Source: Candidatus Zixiibacteriota bacterium
GTDB lineage: Bacteria; Zixibacteria; MSB-5A5; GN15; FEB-12
Assembly: GCA_034003725.1 (NCBI GenBank)
Contig: JAVEYB010000018.1
Coordinates: 1-49,076, forward strand
Direction: 5' to 3'
DNA: 49,076 nucleotides
A model generated the notes under the pieces. It made no database searches. It had not been told where the DNA came from and worked only from the letters and a program-made list of their open reading frames with translations. This document shows positions 4,936-48,979 of the stretch, in pieces; positions within the stretch are counted from its first letter, which is position 1; every line of letters begins with the position of its first letter. The position numbers and the translations under genes are program-made.

Positions 4936-5081
4936 CGGCATAGCGAAAATCACCCGGTTGGCGGCGCGGGTCGCCGCAACGCGACGTGCGAATACGTCAT
5001 AGTCCGAAAAAGAGTTTGACAATAGTGCAAAAACAGCGTTGGTTTGCTCATCCTGCCGTTGAAACTACATGGAGATTTTTA

Positions 5082-5579
5082 ATGGAGTATGTTGAAGGGA
5101 TAATCAAGAACACGGAGTTTTTCACGACCGCTGAGCTGGCCAAGAAGCTGAAAATGAACGTCCAGGTCATCACCCGTAAAGTACAGGCGGGCGAGATCCG
5201 GGCGTTTAAGATCGGCAAGGACTGGCGCATCCCCGAGTCGGCGGTACACGAATGGCTGGAGCGTCACGTGAACGACGGTTCCAACGGTAACGGCAACGGG
5301 AACGGGCATGGGCGCAAAGCCAAGGTCGTGAAAGACTATGTCACGGGCGATCACATCCGGGAACTGCCGTCGAAACGTTTCGAGCGGAAGTACCTGCTCG
5401 AGTTTATCCTCGCACAGTTCGAGCCCAGCAGGACGTATAGCGAGGATGAGGTCAACAACGTGATCAGCCGGTACTACGATGATTTCGCGACCGTCCGTCG
5501 CGAGTTTGTTGCTGAGAACATGCTGGAGAAGGCCGGAGGCGGGTACCGTCGCCGCTCGGGCTACACGTTCTCCGACTGA
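5082..5579 (+). CDS. Excisionase-type HTH plus DUF2087 protein, putative transcription regulator
   Basis: A 165-residue cytoplasmic protein. Residues about 10-62 form an excisionase/MerR-like winged helix (FFTTAELAKKLKMNVQVITR, then FKIGKDWRIPESAVHEWL). A Gly/Asn-rich linker (about 66-77) follows. The C-terminal half matches DUF2087: KRFERKYLLEFILAQF, then YSEDEVNNVI, RREFVAENMLEKAGGGYRR. DUF2087 is usually found as a DNA- or RNA-binding module in small regulators. The start at 5082 is chosen because TGGAG precedes it by 7-8 bp and the domain begins there; an upstream start at 4986 adds unrelated residues. The target is unknown. It is divergent from the EamA gene, which is a candidate target by position only. 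Confidence 0.85.
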   Translation: MEYVEGIIKNTEFFTTAELAKKLKMNVQVITRKVQAGEIRAFKIGKDWRIPESAVHEWLERHVNDGSNGNGNGNGHGRKAKVVKDYVTGDHIRELPSKRFERKYLLEFILAQFEPSRTYSEDEVNNVISRYYDDFATVRREFVAENMLEKAGGGYRRRSGYTFSD

Positions 5580-5615
5580 TCTTCGCGAAGATCGATTTCC
5601 ATGTGACGAAAAGAC

Positions 5616-5643
5616 AAAGCCCCGGCGATTGCCGGGGCTTTTT
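5616..5643. terminator. Bidirectional intrinsic terminator
   Basis: AAAGCCCCGGC and GCCGGGGCTTTTT pair around a short loop. The A run on one side and T run on the other let it serve both the DUF2087 gene (plus) and the DUF2723 gene (minus). Confidence 0.85.
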
Positions 5644-5662
5644 GTGTTTGTAAACGGGCGAC

Positions 5663-8431
5663 TCAATCCTCGAACGCAGGGGGCGGAATATTGCTGGGCA
5701 GGGTGCCGCCGGTGGCGCGCAGGATCTGCTGCACGTAGGGATCGCTGAGATTGATCTTGTACTGCGCGATCAAGGTAGCCGCCTGCCGCAAATCGGTCAC
5801 GTTGTTCGTGCGGGCGAGAATCGTGACCAGCTTGCGGAACGCGTAACTGCTGTTCGGGTTTATCTCAAACGCACGCCACATGTAGTCCAGTCCCCGATCC
5901 ATGAGAGGTTGATCGGCAGTTCGCTGTCCGATTTCGTACATCGTCATGCCGAGATCCTGCATATAAAACAGGTTCTGCGGATTGGACTCCAGGAACGCAG
6001 ACAGGGTGTCCTGAAGCTGGCGATAGACAGCAAGCGCGGCAGCCGAATCGCCGCTGCGTTCCAGATCCTCGGCCAACACATAGCTGGCCTGCCAGTACTC
6101 CGGATACTTTTCGATGAAAGTCCGGATGAAGGTACGCGCTTCGTCGTTCCGGCCGTTGCGATCGAGAGCGTCATACAAGCGGACGGCGTTCATGCCGACA
6201 CCGAGCCAGATGCCGGTCGCGTTGTCATCGCGATAGACCTTTGAATTCTCGAAACCGTCGAACCGGTAGGTATTTCGGAACAGGTCCAGGCCGCGATCGA
6301 TATCGATTTTGTCGGCCGGGGGTTCACGGTCGAGGCGATAGAGCACGCCGACGGCGGTGGCGCGATCGCGGAGATTCAGCGGCGAGGCGTCATACGGAGG
6401 AGAACTGAAATAGACGGGATTCTCCCACCGGTTTTCGAGCACGATTTCGTCGACCATCATATCGGCCACTTTGAGGATGCGCCCCTGGTACGGAGTCGCC
6501 TGGAGATATGCCAGGCGGCCGCGCGGGCGGTCGCGGAATCGATCGGTGGGCTGGCGAGTCTCCCCCATCGGCGACTCGTACGGGTACCACCATATTTGCT
6601 CTTTCGTGAGCGAGATGGGAACGTCGTACTGCTGTTTCATCTGCCAGGTGTACCAGTCGGTGTTCAGCAGCGACAGGTTGACCACCCGAACATCGGTTCG
6701 ATACTTGTACACCTCCTGAATACACCAGAGCGGGAAGGTGTCATTGTCGCCCGACGTGAAGAGGATCGCGTTTTCTTCGCACGTATCGAGCAGATTGGCC
6801 GCGTAGTTGTACGGCAGGAGGTTTTTCGATCTATCGTTTTCGTGATAGTTATCGACGAGCGTGTACCCCGGCAGCAGGACCAACACAGTGCTGGCGTACA
6901 CGAGCGTTTTCTGCATGGATTCGTTGGCGCCGGCCAGTTTCTCACGAAGCAGCTGTATGAGCCCACTGATACCGAGCCCCATGGCGATGCCGAAGAAGAC
7001 AAACGCGGGGGTAAAGAAATAGTCCCGGTTGCGGACTTCCAGATACGCGTCGGCGCCGTCGTACTTTGTCCCGTCGGCGAAGTTCATATACAGCACGAGA
7101 CCGAGCGAGCAGACCAAAAACAAGGTGAAGTACACCATACCGATTTCGGCGCGCTTGCGAATGGCGACGTACATGCCGAAAAGCCCGAGCAGGAAAAAGG
7201 GCGCGAAGTTCCAGCCGGCGGAGGAGTATTGCTCTTCGAAATAGGACCAGTATCCCATGTTGGGATGGCGCCCGAGCTGGTTTTCCCAGGTTCCGCGCCG
7301 TTCGAACATGCGATCCATCATCGACTGCTGACCGTACTGCTTGCGGTCGAGATAGTTTTTGAAGGTATCGTAGTCGCGGTCGGGGTTATTCTGGTCGATC
7401 CGCGGGTTGTGGGCCGATCGCACCGGTATATACATGTGAACCGAGAACCCGATAATACCGACGAGAACGATGGCCATGGCCGTCTTCCATTCGACATTCC
7501 AGCCGAACCGTCGAGCCAGAACTCCGAGGAAGGCGAGGACGACCAGTCCGGCGGGGGCCGCGATCATAAACGTGGAGAACTCAAGCATCAGCGAGGAAAG
7601 CGAGACGATGGCAATCGTGATGGCCCAGTTGATTTTTCGGTACAGGAACGCCAGAAGCAGCGCGCCGAGCGCCAGCGTGACGACATAAAACATGGGCGCT
7701 CCTCCCCTGCCGTTGGCGAAGACGATAATCAGCAGCAGTTCGACAACGATAAAGCTGCAGATCATGATCCAGTCGCGTCGGGTCGCCTGATCATTGAGGA
7801 TATAGAAGATGGACAGGACCGGCACGATCAGGAAGGGCGTCATGTGGATCCCGACCGCCGTCAGGGCGATGAAATAAACCAGGACCATGAGGCGGAGTTT
7901 TCGGGCGAGATTGTGCTCTTCGAAATAGCGCAGAGTCAGCCACAGCATCACGGTCATGATTGCCAGGGACGGTCCGTAGACCTCGGACTCGACCGAGTTC
8001 GACCAGTTCGTAGTCGAGAAGGCGACAAACAGGCCGCCGACGACACCGCCGATGTAGGCGGTCCAGCGATTCAGCGGGGCGTCCTTCTGGTCACCGAAGA
8101 AGTAGCCGACCATCCGTACCGTTACCAGATAGCCGAACAGGGCGGTGAAGCTGGACGAGATGACCGAGAGGTAGTTTATCCGGTAGGAGATATCTTCGAC
8201 AAACGGGATAAGTGACATCACCCGCCCCATAAGGACGAACAGCGGAGTGCCGGGGGGATGGGGTATGCCGAGGATGTACGAACAGGCGATAAACTCGCCG
8301 CAATCCCAGAACGAGAAGGATCGCTGGACGGTCAGGGCGTATACGATGAAGGCGATGGCGAAGACTACGCCGGCGACAATCGCGTTGGTTCGGTCAAAAA
8401 CCTTGCGGGGCACGGCTAACGGGTCGGACAA
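5663..8431 (-). CDS. DUF2723 (TMEM260-like, GT-C fold) membrane protein with C-terminal TPR region
   Basis: A large inner-membrane protein, 922 residues. The N-terminal half has about ten or more transmembrane helices and the DUF2723 signature near residues 38-65 (SFWDCGEFIACSY, GIPHPPGTPL). The family is related to protein O-mannosyltransferases; human TMEM260 is a member, so a glycosyl-transfer role at the periplasmic face is plausible but unproven here. The middle is a soluble extracytoplasmic domain. The last about 200 residues carry TPR-like helices (ALDRNGRNDEARTFIRTFIE, LAEDLERSGDSAAALAVYRQ). The start codon is TTG at 8431, with AGGAGG five bases upstream. It is monocistronic and convergent with the DUF2087 gene across a shared terminator. 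Confidence 0.92.
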   Translation of the reverse strand: MSDPLAVPRKVFDRTNAIVAGVVFAIAFIVYALTVQRSFSFWDCGEFIACSYILGIPHPPGTPLFVLMGRVMSLIPFVEDISYRINYLSVISSSFTALFGYLVTVRMVGYFFGDQKDAPLNRWTAYIGGVVGGLFVAFSTTNWSNSVESEVYGPSLAIMTVMLWLTLRYFEEHNLARKLRLMVLVYFIALTAVGIHMTPFLIVPVLSIFYILNDQATRRDWIMICSFIVVELLLIIVFANGRGGAPMFYVVTLALGALLLAFLYRKINWAITIAIVSLSSLMLEFSTFMIAAPAGLVVLAFLGVLARRFGWNVEWKTAMAIVLVGIIGFSVHMYIPVRSAHNPRIDQNNPDRDYDTFKNYLDRKQYGQQSMMDRMFERRGTWENQLGRHPNMGYWSYFEEQYSSAGWNFAPFFLLGLFGMYVAIRKRAEIGMVYFTLFLVCSLGLVLYMNFADGTKYDGADAYLEVRNRDYFFTPAFVFFGIAMGLGISGLIQLLREKLAGANESMQKTLVYASTVLVLLPGYTLVDNYHENDRSKNLLPYNYAANLLDTCEENAILFTSGDNDTFPLWCIQEVYKYRTDVRVVNLSLLNTDWYTWQMKQQYDVPISLTKEQIWWYPYESPMGETRQPTDRFRDRPRGRLAYLQATPYQGRILKVADMMVDEIVLENRWENPVYFSSPPYDASPLNLRDRATAVGVLYRLDREPPADKIDIDRGLDLFRNTYRFDGFENSKVYRDDNATGIWLGVGMNAVRLYDALDRNGRNDEARTFIRTFIEKYPEYWQASYVLAEDLERSGDSAAALAVYRQLQDTLSAFLESNPQNLFYMQDLGMTMYEIGQRTADQPLMDRGLDYMWRAFEINPNSSYAFRKLVTILARTNNVTDLRQAATLIAQYKINLSDPYVQQILRATGGTLPSNIPPPAFED

Positions 8432-40742: not shown

Positions 40743-43700
40743 CTATATTGCCTTGCTCAGGACGCCGCGCAGGTAGCCGAGTCGCTGGAGGTGGTTTATC
40801 TGACCGAGGTCAAGGGTGATTCGCGGGTGACCAAGCATGGAGAACTCCATCGGCTGGTCGGTAGCCTTGCGCAGGGACTCGACCTCGGCGCGACTGAGTC
40901 GGTGCTGCTCTTCATAGAACAAGTTGACCCGTCCGGCGCGCATGGTCACTTTTTCGAGTCCCATCATGGACGCGCAGATCTTGACGCCTGCGGCATCGAA
41001 GAGGTTCACCGCCGACGGTGGTAGTTTGCCGAAGCGGTCGGTGATTTCATCGCGAAGACGCTCGAGTTCGTCGAGGTTGCGGCAATCCGCGACCCGTCGA
41101 TAAATATCGACTTTCTGCTGGTTGTCATTGACGTAGTTCCCGGGGAGGAAGAGCTCGACATCGAGTTCAATGCGGGTTTCGGGGAGGCGCTGCAGAGGTT
41201 GTCCGCGGAGCTCGGCGACCGCTTCTTCGAGCAGTCGGTTGTACAGGTCGTATCCGACCTCTTCGATGAATCCCGACTGTCGTGCCCCGAGAATAGTCCC
41301 GGCGCCGCGGATTTCCAGATCGCGCATGGCCAGGGCGAATCCGGCGCCGAGATCCGAGTGCGCCTCGAGCGCACGAAGCCGCTTGATGGCGTCGGCGTTC
41401 ATCAACCGTGTCGGCGGTGTCATCAGGTATGCATAGGCGCGCCGCGATGATCGTCCTACCCGGCCCCGTATCTGGTACAGTTGCGCCAGTCCAAAGCGGT
41501 CGGCGCGGTTTATGATAATCGTATTGGCTGAGGGGATGTCGAGACCTGACTCGATGATGGACGTACAGATCAGCACGTCATATCGCTTAGCCATAAACCC
41601 GAGCATGATACCCTCGAGCGATTTCTCGTGCATCTGGCCGTGAGCGACGGCAAACTGGACCTGGGGCAGCAGTTTTTTGAGATAGCGGTGCATCGCTTCG
41701 ATCGTCTGGACCCGATTGTGAACGAAAAACACCTGTCCCCCCCGGTCGATTTCGCGGAGGATACCGGTGGCAATGACGGCCGGGTCGAATTCGACAATCT
41801 CCGTGATGATCGGCAGGCGGTCTTTGGGCGAGGTATTGATGATCGACATATCCCTCGCTCCCATCAAAGACATCTGCAGTGTGCGCGGGATCGGGGTGGC
41901 CGTCATGGCAATCGTGTCAACACTCGCCTTGAGCCGTCGCAGCTTTTCTTTGTGCCGAACACCGAATCGGTGCTCTTCATCGATGATCAGCAGCCCCAGA
42001 TCCCTGAAATGAACGTCGGCCGACAGCAGTCGGTGAGTGCCGATGACGAGATCAACGGTCCCGGCAGCGAGACCATCGACTGTTGCAAGCTGCTCGGCGC
42101 GGGTGCGAAAGCGCGAAAGGACTTCGGTGCGTACCGGGAACTCGGCCAGACGTTCGCGAAAGGTCGCGTAATGCTGTTGGGCGAGAATAGTCGTGGGTAC
42201 CAGCACGGCAACCTGTTTGCCGGCATCGACGGCTTTGAATGCCGCCCGGACGGCGACTTCGGTCTTTCCGTAGCCGACATCGCCGCAAATCAGGCGGTCG
42301 GTCGGCTGATCTTTTTCCATGTCGCGTTTGACGTCGGCGATCGCCCTTGTCTGGTCACGTGTTTCCTCGAACGGGAACGACGCCTCGAGTTGTTTGAGCC
42401 AGGTGGTATCGGGACCGAATGCGAACCCGGGCTGTGACTTTCGCTCGGCGTACAGCTTAATGAGGTCGGCGGCCATATCGGCGACCGCCTTTTTGGTCCG
42501 GGCTTTCAGTTTATCCCAACCCGGCCCGCCGAGTCGTGTCAGCGCCGGTGCGCTGTCCTTTCCCGCGTATTTTGACACACGGTTGAATTCCTCGATCGGG
42601 ACGTACAGCTTGTCCTGTTCCGCGTACTGCAGCAGCAGGCAATCCCGGTTCCGACCATCCACTGTCAGCGTTTCCAGTTTGATATAACGGGCGATGCCGT
42701 GATCGGTGTGAACGACATAATCACCGTGGTTCAGGGACGAATAGTCGGCGATCGCCACGCCTTCTTTGAACTTTTTGCGACGGACGCGGCGGTGATAGCG
42801 ACTGAAAATCTGGTGGTCGGTAAGGATTGCATAACCGTCGCTCGGGCAGACAAACCCGCCTTTGAGGTCAGCGACTTCGATCGGGGGACGGGTATCGAGC
42901 TTGGCTTTCTCGGCGATCAACTCGTCGAGCCGGGCGGCCTGTCCCTCGGAATCGGTGGCGATGAAATAGGTGATGCCGGCCGATTCGTACTCACGGATGG
43001 TCTCACCGAGCAGGTCCAACCGGGAGCCGAGCGCCGGATGCTCGCGGCAGTCGAAGCTGACAATCTCGCCGCGTCCCCCCTTGAAGGGAACGCGGTCAAT
43101 CTGTCGAAATTGATCGAGGCGGTCAAACAGCAGACTCCGCGTCACATAATACTGGTCCGGATCGGGGAGCCGCTGCAGACGGCCGGCGAGGCGCTCACGC
43201 AGCGAGCCTGCCTCTGCAAGGATGGAGTCAGCTTCCTCGCCGATTGTTCCGTGGCCGTCGAAGATCACCACCGTATCCCGGGGGAGATAGTCGGACAAGC
43301 GCCCTTGCGGGATGCCGAAAAGCAGGGCCAGCCATTCCAGTCCGGGCAGTTCGGGATCATTGACGTAGCGTCGACGGATATAATCCCCGTCGTCTTCGGG
43401 CATCTCGGCGAGATACTGCTCGAGGGTCTCCTGCGTGATGGGGATTTCACGTCGAGGCAGGAGGGTGATGCGCTTTTGAGAATCGACAGTGCGCTGGGTG
43501 CCGACGTCAAAATGTCGAATGGTTTCGATCTCGTCGCCGAAAAACTCTATTCTGACAGGCGCCTCGGCGCCGGGAGTGAAAAAATCCACCAACCCACCGC
43601 GACGTGCGAAATCGCCGACTTCTTCAACCAGGGGTACACGATGAAACCCCAGCGATACCAGCTTGTCGACCAGGCTATCGATGTCCTGCTCGTCGCCAGC

Positions 43701-44177
43701 CTTCAGGTCAATCATCGCCGAGGCAAGGTTCTCCGGCGGGATAGTCGGTTCCATCAGGGCTCGAACAGGCGTGACGACGACATCGAGATCGCCCGCGCGC
43801 AAAGCGGCCAGCGTGGAAATACGTTTTCCCATAATCTCGCCGACGGGCGCGCGGAAGTCGTAGGGAAGAATCTGCCGCGAGGGGTAATGTCCGACCCGTT
43901 CGGGTCCGAGGAGAAACAGCAGATCCTCATACAGGTCACCGGCCTCTTCGGAGCGCTGCGTGACGACCAGAATCGGTGATTTCCCTGTGGCGGCAAGCGA
44001 GCGGATCAGCACCGCCGTGGACGACCCGGCGAGCCCGGTGACGACACAGGGAATCCCCGGCTGTGATTGCTCGAGCATGTGTGACAGCCGAACGAAGGGT
44101 CGGCCGGACATAAAGCGTTCGAATACGTACTCGAGTCGGGTACGCGAAGCGGCGCGGGTTTCCATTCGATCGTTCAT
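40743..44177 (-). CDS. mfd: Transcription-repair coupling factor Mfd
   Basis: 1144 residues. Mfd pushes RNA polymerase off DNA lesions and recruits UvrA for nucleotide excision repair. Order of domains: UvrB-like N-terminal region (1-300, with YPSRQILPYDFRAPVGEIMG), the RNA-polymerase-interacting domain starting near 482 (LNHGDYVVHTDHGIARY), a superfamily 2 translocase with Walker A GDVGYGKTE at 632-640, DEEH at 733-736, TATPIPRTL at 759-767 and motif VI YQIRGRVGRSSRRAYAYL, and a C-terminal TRCF domain (ETRIELDVELFLPGNYVND). GGAG is 4 bp before the ATG. Its own promoter and a terminator-like hairpin form the leader. Confidence 0.98.
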   Translation of the reverse strand: MNDRMETRAASRTRLEYVFERFMSGRPFVRLSHMLEQSQPGIPCVVTGLAGSSTAVLIRSLAATGKSPILVVTQRSEEAGDLYEDLLFLLGPERVGHYPSRQILPYDFRAPVGEIMGKRISTLAALRAGDLDVVVTPVRALMEPTIPPENLASAMIDLKAGDEQDIDSLVDKLVSLGFHRVPLVEEVGDFARRGGLVDFFTPGAEAPVRIEFFGDEIETIRHFDVGTQRTVDSQKRITLLPRREIPITQETLEQYLAEMPEDDGDYIRRRYVNDPELPGLEWLALLFGIPQGRLSDYLPRDTVVIFDGHGTIGEEADSILAEAGSLRERLAGRLQRLPDPDQYYVTRSLLFDRLDQFRQIDRVPFKGGRGEIVSFDCREHPALGSRLDLLGETIREYESAGITYFIATDSEGQAARLDELIAEKAKLDTRPPIEVADLKGGFVCPSDGYAILTDHQIFSRYHRRVRRKKFKEGVAIADYSSLNHGDYVVHTDHGIARYIKLETLTVDGRNRDCLLLQYAEQDKLYVPIEEFNRVSKYAGKDSAPALTRLGGPGWDKLKARTKKAVADMAADLIKLYAERKSQPGFAFGPDTTWLKQLEASFPFEETRDQTRAIADVKRDMEKDQPTDRLICGDVGYGKTEVAVRAAFKAVDAGKQVAVLVPTTILAQQHYATFRERLAEFPVRTEVLSRFRTRAEQLATVDGLAAGTVDLVIGTHRLLSADVHFRDLGLLIIDEEHRFGVRHKEKLRRLKASVDTIAMTATPIPRTLQMSLMGARDMSIINTSPKDRLPIITEIVEFDPAVIATGILREIDRGGQVFFVHNRVQTIEAMHRYLKKLLPQVQFAVAHGQMHEKSLEGIMLGFMAKRYDVLICTSIIESGLDIPSANTIIINRADRFGLAQLYQIRGRVGRSSRRAYAYLMTPPTRLMNADAIKRLRALEAHSDLGAGFALAMRDLEIRGAGTILGARQSGFIEEVGYDLYNRLLEEAVAELRGQPLQRLPETRIELDVELFLPGNYVNDNQQKVDIYRRVADCRNLDELERLRDEITDRFGKLPPSAVNLFDAAGVKICASMMGLEKVTMRAGRVNLFYEEQHRLSRAEVESLRKATDQPMEFSMLGHPRITLDLGQINHLQRLGYLRGVLSKAI

Positions 44178-44201
44178 TGTTCTCCGTTACTGCGCCAACA
44201 C

Positions 44202-44231
44202 AAAAACCCCCGGCAAGCTTCTTACCGGGGT
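44202..44231 (-). terminator. Terminator-like hairpin inside the mfd leader
   Basis: On the minus strand CCCCGG and CCGGGG form the stem around an 11-base loop, followed by five T residues. It sits between the mfd promoter and the mfd ribosome site, with no gene upstream on that strand. It therefore looks like an attenuator rather than the end of another gene. Confidence 0.65.
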
Positions 44232-44252
44232 CTGTACTGGTATGCGGCCAGC

Positions 44253-44281
44253 AGTATACATATTTCGGTCGAATTCGACAA
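44253..44281 (-). promoter_or_regulatory. Promoter of mfd
   Basis: On the minus strand TTGTCG (44281-44276), 17 nt, TATACT (44258-44253). Transcription should begin near 44246, about 70 nt before the start codon and 15 nt before the hairpin. Confidence 0.55.
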
Positions 44282-44741
44282 GTTTTTTGCGGGACGTATC
44301 GGTGCGTATAATATGGACTATAGAACACTACGTTGCGTCCGCCGGACGGGATCCCGGCCCGGGTCATAAGTATATGTTGCATGATGAGATATGGCAAACC
44401 GTGGCGGCGCGGGAGGAATTGTCAAGATTGTGTTAGCAAGCGGCTATTTGATGGTTAACGGGGTTTATAGACTCTGACTCATGGCGGTCACTCTGCATTC
44501 AATCAGCCGGCGTTATAAAAGCAGAGATAATAATGACACTACTGGCGTTCGCGGCCGTGGCCTTTGGCCCGGTGCCCCCGGTCTTCGGCGAGCGGTCCCT
44601 GAGCAAAGTGTAATACGGGCTCCCGAGACGGCGCGGGAACACCGGCATTCAGGTGAGTCGTTCCGCGTCCTCGACACCAAGAAAAAAGTCGCGCTCAGCC
44701 GCACCTACTGAACTCGGTGCCCCCTTTTCTCGCCAAAAGTC
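44282..44741. other. Gene-poor stretch between mfd and the NTF2-like gene
   Basis: A TATAAT at 44307-44312 (plus strand) has no good upstream box. At 44416-44436 is a 21-base motif also found at 18834-18854 (one mismatch). At 44533-44613 is a 26-codon frame that reads like a signal peptide (MTLLAFAAVAFGPVPPVF) and then stops; a different frame continues with protein-like sequence to 44711. This could be a decayed secreted-protein gene or chance. Confidence 0.3.
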
Positions 44742-44769
44742 TTGCCACTGCCGATCTTATGTATATGAT
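44742..44769 (+). promoter_or_regulatory. Promoter of the NTF2-like gene
   Basis: TTGCCA (44742-44747), 16 nt, TATGAT (44764-44769), about 50 bp before the start codon. Confidence 0.5.
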
Positions 44770-44820
44770 TAGCGGCGATAGGACTACGGTTGACAGGTGT
44801 CAGGGAAAGGAGCCCGGGGT

Positions 44821-45315
44821 ATGACCGGAAGTGCCGGCAGTCCGGTAAGACGATTCATTGCGGACCCGAATGACGTGGGGTCGATCGAAGCGATCATCAC
44901 CGCGTTGTACGAGTCGGTATCGTTCGAGCCCGGTTCTGAGCCCAATTGGAACCGATTGCGTTCGTTGTTTCTCGATTCCGGAAGACTGATTCCCCGTCGT
45001 CCCGGCGCCCTGCCGGAAGTCCAGTCCATGAACATCGAGGGGTTTATCACGCGATCAGAACCGGTACTGCGTGCCGGGCAGTTTCTTCGCAGAGGCTTTA
45101 TCGAGAGAGAAATCACCCGGCGTATCGAGCGGTTCGGCGGTATCGTGCATGTCTGGAGTACCTATCAGTCGTCGTTCGCCGACGGTGGTGAGCCGTTCAC
45201 GCGCGGAATCAACAGCATTCAACTGGTCTACCACCACGACCGGTGGTGGGTGCTCACGATCTTCTGGGAAGACGAGACGCCGAATGTGCCGCTGCCGGCG
45301 GAGTACCTGGCGTAG
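44821..45315 (+). CDS. NTF2-like (SnoaL/DUF4440-type) protein
   Basis: 164 residues from the ATG at 44821, with AGGAG eight bases upstream. A GTG at 44797 is possible but less likely. The layout fits a cone-shaped NTF2-like fold: an N-terminal helix (VGSIEAIITALYESVSFEPG, PNWNRLRSLFLDSGRLIPR), a middle helix (NIEGFITRSEPVLRAGQFL), then paired strands (EREITRRIERFGGIVHVWST, GINSIQLVYHHDRWWVLTIF, ending WEDE). Members are often small-molecule-binding proteins or stress-related enzymes of unknown substrate. No signal peptide. It is convergent with motB. Confidence 0.82.
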   Translation: MTGSAGSPVRRFIADPNDVGSIEAIITALYESVSFEPGSEPNWNRLRSLFLDSGRLIPRRPGALPEVQSMNIEGFITRSEPVLRAGQFLRRGFIEREITRRIERFGGIVHVWSTYQSSFADGGEPFTRGINSIQLVYHHDRWWVLTIFWEDETPNVPLPAEYLA

Positions 45316-45325
45316 GCGGTCAAGC

Positions 45326-46177
45326 TCAGTCTCCAACCTCGGCCATCAGATCCGAACCAACTTCCATCTGGTCATACGCCCGTTCGCGTGACTCGTACAG
45401 CACAAGTATGCTGACCCTGCGGTTGCGTTGGTCATCCGGAGTGTGCGCGATCATGGGGATCTTGTCCGCATACCCGCGAACCTCGCGCACCTGCCCGAAA
45501 CGCAGGCCGGAGACCTCCATCAACTGCCGCGCGGCGTTGGCGCGGTCGGCTGACAACTCCCAGTTGGAGTATGCAGCATCGCCGGTAATGGACCGATCAG
45601 TGTGCCCCTCGACGACCAGGGAGTTCTGGAGTTGGCCGAGCTGGCGGGCGATCGTTACCAGGATTATGGCGCTCTTCTGAAGAAGCTTGGACGACCCGGG
45701 CTCGAAGAAGGCGGGTGCGTTTTCCGATTCGTTGAGGATAATCCGCAAACCCTCGGAGGTCATCTGCAACTTGACGTTTTTCTTGAGACGCTTGAAGGCG
45801 TCTTGTTTTTCCAGTTCATGGAGAATTCCCTGCGCGGCGGCGGCCATCTGTTTCTGTTCCTCGGCGCTGGGGAGATGTTCCTTTTTGATGACTTCCTTCA
45901 CGAGCGTATTCGCCGAGCTGCCTTCCTTTTTCAACACCGACGCACTGCCTTTGAGGACGCCGGCTCCGCCTTTCGTCTGATACTTGCCGGGATCACGGAA
46001 GTACTCACTGACGTTTTTCTTGACCTGGTCGGACTGACCGACGAGCCACATCACAAGGAAAAAGGCCATCATGGCCGTCATGAAGTCAGCAAAGGCGACC
46101 TTCCATGACCCGCCGTGGTGGCCGTGTCCGTATTTTTTGACACGTTTTATGATGATTGGCTGTTCGCTGTCAGCCAT
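45326..46177 (-). CDS. motB: Flagellar motor stator protein MotB
   Basis: 283 residues. It has the proton-accepting aspartate D31 in the single transmembrane helix (VAFADFMTAMMAFFLVMWLV), a plug and linker, and a C-terminal OmpA-like peptidoglycan-binding domain (LVVEGHTDRSITGDAAYSNW, ELSADRANAARQLME, DDQRNRRVSILVL). The protein anchors the stator to the cell wall. It starts 5 bp after the motA stop, and motAB form one unit. No other flagellar gene is in the window. Confidence 0.96.
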   Translation of the reverse strand: MADSEQPIIIKRVKKYGHGHHGGSWKVAFADFMTAMMAFFLVMWLVGQSDQVKKNVSEYFRDPGKYQTKGGAGVLKGSASVLKKEGSSANTLVKEVIKKEHLPSAEEQKQMAAAAQGILHELEKQDAFKRLKKNVKLQMTSEGLRIILNESENAPAFFEPGSSKLLQKSAIILVTIARQLGQLQNSLVVEGHTDRSITGDAAYSNWELSADRANAARQLMEVSGLRFGQVREVRGYADKIPMIAHTPDDQRNRRVSILVLYESRERAYDQMEVGSDLMAEVGD

Positions 46178-48728: not shown

Positions 48729-48902
48729 CGCGGGGTGGAGTCCGCCGCTGGCGGAGTAGCTCGCCGCGACATGAAAAGATAGAAACCGCGGGGTGGAGTC
48801 CGCCGCTGGCGGAGTAGCTCGCCGCGACATGAAAAGATAGAAACCGCGGGGTGGAGTCCGCCACTGGCGGAGTAGCTCGCCGCGACGTGAAAAGATAGAA
48901 AC
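48729..48902 (+). repeat. Three 58-bp direct repeats resembling the 5' half of initiator tRNA
   Basis: Copies start at 48729, 48787 and 48845. The first two are identical and the third differs at two positions. Each begins with CGCGGGGTGGAG, exactly as the tRNA-fMet gene that starts 58 bp later at 48903, and also shares CTGG and TAGCTCG with its D arm. Between these lies an added hairpin, TCCGCC/GGCGGA. The first 40 nt can fold as one long hairpin (outer CGCGG/CCGCG). The last 18 nt (ACATGAAAAGATAGAAAC) look unstructured. The units are contiguous without spacers. Confidence 0.95.

Positions 48903-48979
<77 letters not shown>

Follow-up and report, generated by a model that had tools for sequence, protein, structure and literature searches.

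A conserved terminator-like hairpin in the mfd leader of Candidatus Zixiibacteriota, a probable attenuator of mfd

Leader terminators and genes for polymerase-acting factors

Two described bacterial leaders place a terminator ahead of genes for factors that act on elongating RNA polymerase. The rimP leader (Rfam RF01770), as characterized by Naville and Gautheret in 2010 (PMC2965389), precedes the transcription-factor operon rimP-nusA-infB; it is described there as a short conserved terminator that is not part of any larger conserved element and whose general form has no visible antiterminator, the proposed regulation proceeding via a protein such as NusA. The greA leader with GraL, according to the account in PMC6829880, carries a terminator 19 nt after the transcription start and precedes the gene for a rescuer of stalled polymerase, and its feedback on its own expression has been measured. 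As described in PMC2965389, the greA and rnk leaders have a clear antiterminator, and 5' terminators are in general weaker than those at gene ends. Riboswitch and T-box attenuators likewise have a terminator between promoter and gene, and require an aptamer or T-box domain together with an antiterminator.

Here we describe the leader of mfd in a bacterium of the little-studied phylum Candidatus Zixiibacteriota and in its relatives. The window, that is, the whole stretch of DNA that was analysed, comprises 49,076 nt (contig JAVEYB010000018.1 of assembly GCA_034003725.1). Mfd is a remover of stalled RNA polymerase that helps DNA repair and can also promote mutation; control of its amount seems little studied, which is an impression from the literature and not a survey. 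By comparative analysis we consider it likely that the mfd leader is a bare, leaky, promoter-proximal intrinsic terminator that attenuates mfd.

By analogy of layout, the rimP leader and GraL are the closest parallels to the mfd leader. The likeness to the rimP leader lies in a short conserved terminator with neither a larger conserved element nor a visible antiterminator; the two differ in the 5' arm, G-rich in the rimP leader (GGGc...gCCC) and C-rich in the mfd leader, as well as in the gene, and RF01770 had no match in 13 genomes of the Zixiibacteriota group, which leaves the mfd leader outside that family. The likeness to the greA leader lies in the terminator placed a few nt after the start (about 16 nt in the predicted mfd transcript) and in a downstream gene for a protein that deals with stalled polymerase. 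GraL, however, belongs to another phylum and lies upstream of greA or rnk, whereas the gene here is mfd (TIGR00580); the antiterminators of the greA and rnk leaders have no consistent counterpart in mfd leaders, and the GraL feedback was measured, whereas feedback at the mfd leader is hypothetical. In contrast to riboswitch and T-box attenuators, the window's predicted transcript has only about 16 nt before the hairpin; neither an aptamer nor a leader peptide was found in the order-level leaders, which have no room for one.

This kind of regulator is known, while mfd as its target gene and the RNA family look new. A literature search of titles and abstract openings, with most subscription journals outside its range, found no attenuator or leader terminator of mfd; the word mfd is absent from the main text of the survey PMC2965389, and two passages of PMC8297930 treat mfd purely as a termination factor. 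For the amount of Mfd, such a conserved leader terminator offers a concrete, testable control point. If the proposed role is true, mfd joins nusA (in the rimP operon) and greA, whose products act on polymerase and whose own leaders hold a terminator, and the leader provides a clean case of an attenuator with the transcription machinery as its only sensor.

The mfd leader in the window

A preliminary description of this locus had read a promoter, then a terminator-like hairpin with five T residues, then a ribosome site and mfd, and this arrangement was confirmed on the minus strand at 44281-44177. The sigma-70-like promoter (44281-44253) consists of the -35 element TTGTCG (44276-44281; often TTGGCN or CTGGCN in relatives), a 17-nt spacer and the -10 element TATACT (44253-44258), and agrees with the consensus at 9 of 12 positions in the promoter scan. 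Typical distances between a -10 element and the start place the predicted transcription start region at 44243-44247, with 44246 as the predicted start. The conserved and covarying hairpin CCCCGGTAAG-AAG-CTTGCCGGGG (44208-44230) starts 22 nt beyond the -10 element and has GC-rich arms of 10 bp, CCCCGGTAAG at 44230-44221 and CTTGCCGGGG at 44217-44208, around the loop AAG (44220-44218). One extra G (44207) stands between the hairpin and the T-tract TTTTT (44202-44206), the putative terminator U-tract, whose direction is supported in relatives. The T-tract is followed by the conserved tail GTGTTGG (44195-44201), which fits the GYGYT-type pattern of the leader slices, by the ribosome-binding site GGAG (44182-44185) and, 24 nt from the T-tract, by the ATG at 44177. 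The gene itself (40743-44177, minus strand) encodes the transcription-repair coupling factor of 1144 aa, as identified from the list of open reading frames and by the NCBIfam model TIGR00580 (1025.9 bits; cut-off 800). In the window and in its relatives a GC-rich stem is thus joined directly to a T-tract, as in an intrinsic terminator, and the whole lies between promoter and gene, as in a leader attenuator.

The predicted 45-nt RNA (44246-44202) folds into this hairpin only, at -18.3 kcal/mol (z -3.29), with 1 of 200 shuffles equally good. Within 1.5 kb around the leader there are two terminator-like sites, an unremarkable count given 1.6 +/- 1.5 expected, and three promoter-like sites (0.5 +/- 0.8 expected). 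With the terminator-like count near expectation, the window by itself is suggestive, and it is conservation in the phylum that raises the hairpin above chance. Rfam gave nothing for 44100-44800 at E up to 10, and no second copy of the whole leader was found in the 3.73-Mb assembly.

The remaining details of the preliminary description fared differently. Its view that no other minus-strand gene would need this terminator holds: the nearest upstream ORF lies on the opposite strand, and all three minus-strand ORFs of at least 80 aa between motB (45326-46177) and mfd are judged spurious, namely 43936-44397, which covers the hairpin and overlaps mfd, and 44784-45116 and 45055-45336, which overlap the plus-strand ORF 44797-45315. 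A small CTGG/CCAG hairpin noted ahead of the terminator is not supported: its CTGG (44251-44248) comes before the predicted start, the hairpin is probably not part of the transcript, and it is absent from the same-genus relatives L010 and L011 and not conserved.

Conservation, direction and covariation across the phylum

Upstream regions of mfd were collected from the genomes of the same family and order (best 30 matches), from the contigs of named genomes, and from other members of the order and phylum. At class and at phylum level the searches covered an identical set of 132 genomes. The collection comprises 105 leader slices, equal to 101 distinct leaders, which were scored by a rule of a CCC...GGG hairpin followed by TTT, widened to accept TAATT for the full set. 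In the first set 45 of 46 slices conform, and the remaining one (L028) has the hairpin with TTG; under the widened rule 86 of 105 slices, or 83 of 101 distinct leaders, carry the element, among them L201 of family f13, which is probably a chance hairpin. Four further distinct leaders have the element by eye (L028, L059/L179, L160 and L215). The other 15, L201 included, contain 14 judgeable leaders that are without the element or doubtful (L225), and L182, which with just 47 nt of upstream sequence is too short to judge. In three genomes whose mfd had earlier been missed or only partly found (G035, G053 and G054), the element likewise stands 30-65 nt upstream of the first Mfd residue in the alignment.

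The element is present in 13 of 19 families (f1, f2, f4, f5, f6, f7, f9, f10, f15, f16, f17, f18 and f19), in f19 in four of six slices by eye. By eye it was not seen in the mfd leaders of f3, f11, f12, f13 and f14 and is doubtful in f8; f6, f8 and f11 are represented by one genome each and f3 by two. These families and the two f19 slices without such a leader indicate that mfd does not need the element. The stem design varies by family (CCCCGG in f1, CCCCTCCC in f4, CCCACCCCCC in f9), and the features kept across families are a C-rich 5' base, a G-rich 3' base and a T-tract, mostly also with a G[T/C]GTT-like tail. In some leaders the T-tract is short or broken, as TTTCG in many of them and as the TTG of L028.

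Two kinds of deviating leaders were observed. Three leaders of f5 (L205, L212 and L213) retain the hairpin and the GYGTT tail and have TAATT as their T-tract, as if termination were weakened. Leaders of f9 and f10 (L194, L196, L198, L200, L203 and L206) look longer; an apparent extra hairpin, such as ATGCC/GGCAT in L198 and L200, lies downstream of a possible promoter and upstream of the terminator.

The element is directional with respect to mfd. The alignments A1 and A2 were picked by a rule that requires CCC...GGG and TTT, and the fair count is the one that is blind to the tail: a CCC...GGG hairpin of -7 kcal/mol or better occurs in 94 of 105 slices, and of these 94 hairpins 82 have TTT no more than 6 nt away on the side of mfd, as against five with AAA on the opposite side. 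This one-sided tract at the stem base would be left unexplained if the hairpin stabilized the mRNA or tuned mfd translation without terminating transcription, and we regard such a role as unlikely, although it would suit a hairpin near the 5' end that in f15 lies about 12 nt before the likely ATG.

A -10 box with at least five of six matches is located 19-33 nt upstream of the hairpin in 41 of 43 order-level leaders, compared with 6 of 43 control stretches taken another 110 nt upstream, where those of L029 and L045 run past the contig end. In the outer families, some of which are without a -10 at the set distance, the promoter is harder to recognize. On the other side of the element, 9-29 nt separate the T-tract from the first Mfd residue, as extrapolated, in 36 of 45 order-level slices, so that most order-level leaders have no room for another promoter after the hairpin and mfd transcripts should run through the putative terminator.

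The nearest upstream ORF, as located by a crude caller with a threshold of at least 85 aa that misses smaller genes, is on the same strand in 41 of the 64 leaders with at least 500 nt of upstream sequence and on the opposite strand in 23, namely the window and 22 others. Since the hairpin is kept with the upstream ORF in tandem or opposed, it belongs with mfd and is not simply a neighbour's terminator. A terminator of an upstream gene, or its remnant, with no role for mfd would agree with seven of ten f15-f17 leaders, where a same-strand ORF stops 21-45 nt upstream of the hairpin (in the remaining three there is too little upstream DNA to count); the opposed ORFs, the -10-like box just before the hairpin and the lack of room for a later promoter make this origin very unlikely.

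Covariation was analysed in the 28 of 43 order-level leaders that have identical spacing (27 distinct rows). The inner stem has a covariation score of 0.229 versus 0.111 +/- 0.019 in shuffles, and 82.6% of the cells in the stem are paired versus 73.9 +/- 1.5, both values being reached by none of 500 shuffles and both dropping when the partner is slid by one to three columns. Two further measures are weaker: the number of pairs altered on both sides (6 versus 4.2) is equalled in 16 of 500 shuffles and is also 6 at a one-column slide, and the number of further pair types (17 versus 14.6) is equalled in 65 of 500. The outer four C-G pairs are invariant in the aligned rows, partly as a result of row choice, because the selection rule for A1 and A2 builds in part of the invariance of the CCC...GGG and TTT letters. 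In the loop and upper stem the sequence varies freely, and the innermost pairs are made by only roughly half of the rows. Alignment A1, made with MAFFT, dropped 2 of 45 rows (L055 and L056, with an element identical to that of L047); the covariance model R1 derived from it had three pairs only and no RNAalifold covariation, owing to stems misaligned in A1, and was replaced by R2, which is based on the 28 leaders.

The same data bear on the possibility that the inverted repeat is a DNA operator, placed just past the mfd promoter and bound by a repressor. A palindrome near +1 whose CCCC/GGGG base does not vary among the aligned rows, itself partly due to row choice, is compatible with an operator; inner arms that change in sequence yet keep pairing, stem designs that differ among f1, f4 and f9, and a one-sided T-tract argue against it and render it the least probable of the explanations.

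Two extensions of the fold were considered. An ACAC/GTGT lower stem, joining the A-rich flank to the tail and attractive by eye in f2 and f7, does not pair clearly beyond the level of pairing between leaders: permutations gave z -1.2 for 43 leaders (1146 of 10000 as good) and z -2.35 for 86 leaders (104 of 10000 as good, with relatedness ignored), and this stem is regarded as suggestive. As for an antiterminator, no consistent alternative fold was found in the order-level leaders; for the flank preceding the hairpin, pairing is weak with the 5' arm (-3.2 kcal/mol on average, -8.6 at best) and uneven with the 3' arm (-5.0 kcal/mol on average, -13.8 at best).

Specificity of the element and the proposed attenuation

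In its own genome the best match of model R2 is the mfd leader (46.4 bits, E 3.1e-8). The second match (32.9 bits, E 1.3e-4) is an ordinary strong terminator on the plus strand (5607-5654), used for comparison only, between the convergent genes 4986-5579 (plus strand) and 5663-8431 (minus strand); it resembles the mfd leader in stem, T-tract and tail (GTGTTTG), which indicates that the mfd-leader shape is the shape of a real terminator. When 61 genomes were searched, 57 had a match at E up to 0.5 and the strongest 34 matches were all at mfd. Fifteen further match regions include three with the mfd N-terminus by tblastn and one (G013) that looks like an mfd leader at a contig end. The other 11 are not at mfd: eight are no more than about 50 nt away from where an ORF ends, three are unclear, and eight of the 11 have AAA on the 5' side by eye.

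These matches also bear on the idea that the product is the short RNA itself, a small RNA of about 45 nt acting elsewhere while mfd is expressed by read-through. The promoter-to-terminator unit has a shape typical of such RNAs, and GraL is reported to act in trans as well (PMC6829880). We nevertheless find this role improbable, given that conservation is poor ahead of the hairpin and in the loop, with no visible seed, that the 34 strongest matches are all at mfd, and that eight of the 11 non-mfd matches sit near ORF ends.

The combination of promoter, hairpin and T-tract is rare at other genes. In a 400-kb sample of the window's own genome, 1 of 290 other ORFs passed the strict joint test, compared with 50 of 105 mfd slices, the window's own among them, a contrast that somewhat favours mfd because its slices were tried at up to three start positions and the control ORFs at one. 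The failures are partly absences of the element, partly outer families without a placed -10, and partly single misses at the order level (L016, L031, L032, L053 and others). The GYGYT-type tail occurs somewhere in 58 of 105 mfd slices and follows 1 of 76 intergenic terminators of the same sample, or 3 of 76 by a looser pattern, the patterns for the two groups being similar, not identical. Given this rarity the tail seems to be more than a local terminator style, yet the terminator at 5607-5654 has it too. The conserved GYGTT tail goes beyond the standard parts of a terminator and counts against reading the leader as a plain terminator.

Outside the phylum, 33 of 45 mfd loci from other groups (L063-L108 without L097) extend far enough upstream, 12 being skipped, and none of the 33 leaders conforms to the CCC...GGG rule. 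A looser rule of hairpin plus T at -10 kcal/mol is satisfied by 6 of these 33 (L066 and L067 from Paenibacillus, L075 behind a tRNA gene, L072, L079 and L089) versus 75 of 105 Zixiibacteriota slices.

The suggestion in the preliminary description that early termination may control mfd is partly supported: early termination appears to be the best-supported reading of the sequence, with a directional element kept near the gene in 13 of 19 families, whereas the small hairpin that accompanied it falls away. RNA polymerase would start near 44246 and transcribe about 16 nt before the hairpin forms, then slow on the U-tract about 45 nt from the start. Part of the complexes would be released as an RNA of about 45 nt and the rest would read into mfd 24 nt downstream. 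Because the leader has no visible sensor of its own, the released share is expected to depend on the state of the elongation complex, as set by pausing, elongation factors and perhaps Mfd. A leaky terminator of this type would cap mfd output and respond to whatever alters polymerase behaviour at the U-tract.

Leakiness is suggested by the d-score of d'Aubenton Carafa, which has a median of 4.3 for the mfd-leader hairpins, 51 of 86 being above 0 and 35 of 86 at or below it, and a median of 26.6 for gene-end terminators of the own genome, 15 of 20 being above 0. Partial read-through fits the weaker prediction for the mfd-leader hairpins.

A special case of the attenuator is feedback by Mfd, in which the hairpin and T-tract mainly pause polymerase and Mfd raises release, limiting its own synthesis. 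The conserved T-to-G steps after the hairpin resemble the elemental pause consensus. GreA, likewise a rescuer of stalled polymerase, is described as repressing its own gene via the terminator in its leader (PMC6829880), and in B. subtilis Mfd is reported to influence polymerase at RNAs that form structures (Ragheb 2021, as summarized in the review PMC8174841). As the rimP-leader and GraL parallels concern factors acting on elongating polymerase, as Mfd does, the hypothesis is a reasonable one; we give it a fairly low probability, since several families keep mfd without the leader element, and since the GreA/GraL effect is reported to work only in vivo, by a mechanism described as unsettled (PMC6829880). 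It is similarly doubtful that the leader senses Mfd activity throughout the phylum, as a tuned pause-terminator in which the T-tract and GYGTT, together its conserved tail, would keep polymerase in the state on which Mfd acts; Mfd would then set its own level by clearing polymerases off its leader.

Several other repeats and hairpins were noticed. In the two Paenibacillus leaders, mfd is preceded by a terminator-like hairpin (-16.9 kcal/mol) and TTTTT that are unrelated to the element described here. In the own-genome sample (L233-L252), a strong hairpin with T7 at about 337618-337649 (minus strand) lies 42 nt before the gene of a zinc-ribbon-like protein; it was not picked out by the strict promoter-plus-terminator test. 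The window contains two tandem arrays: one at its start (1-323) has a 103-nt unit in 3.1 copies, and the other (48729-48914) has a 58-nt unit in 3.2 copies with 98% matches and runs into the start of the tRNA-Met gene at 48903-48979.
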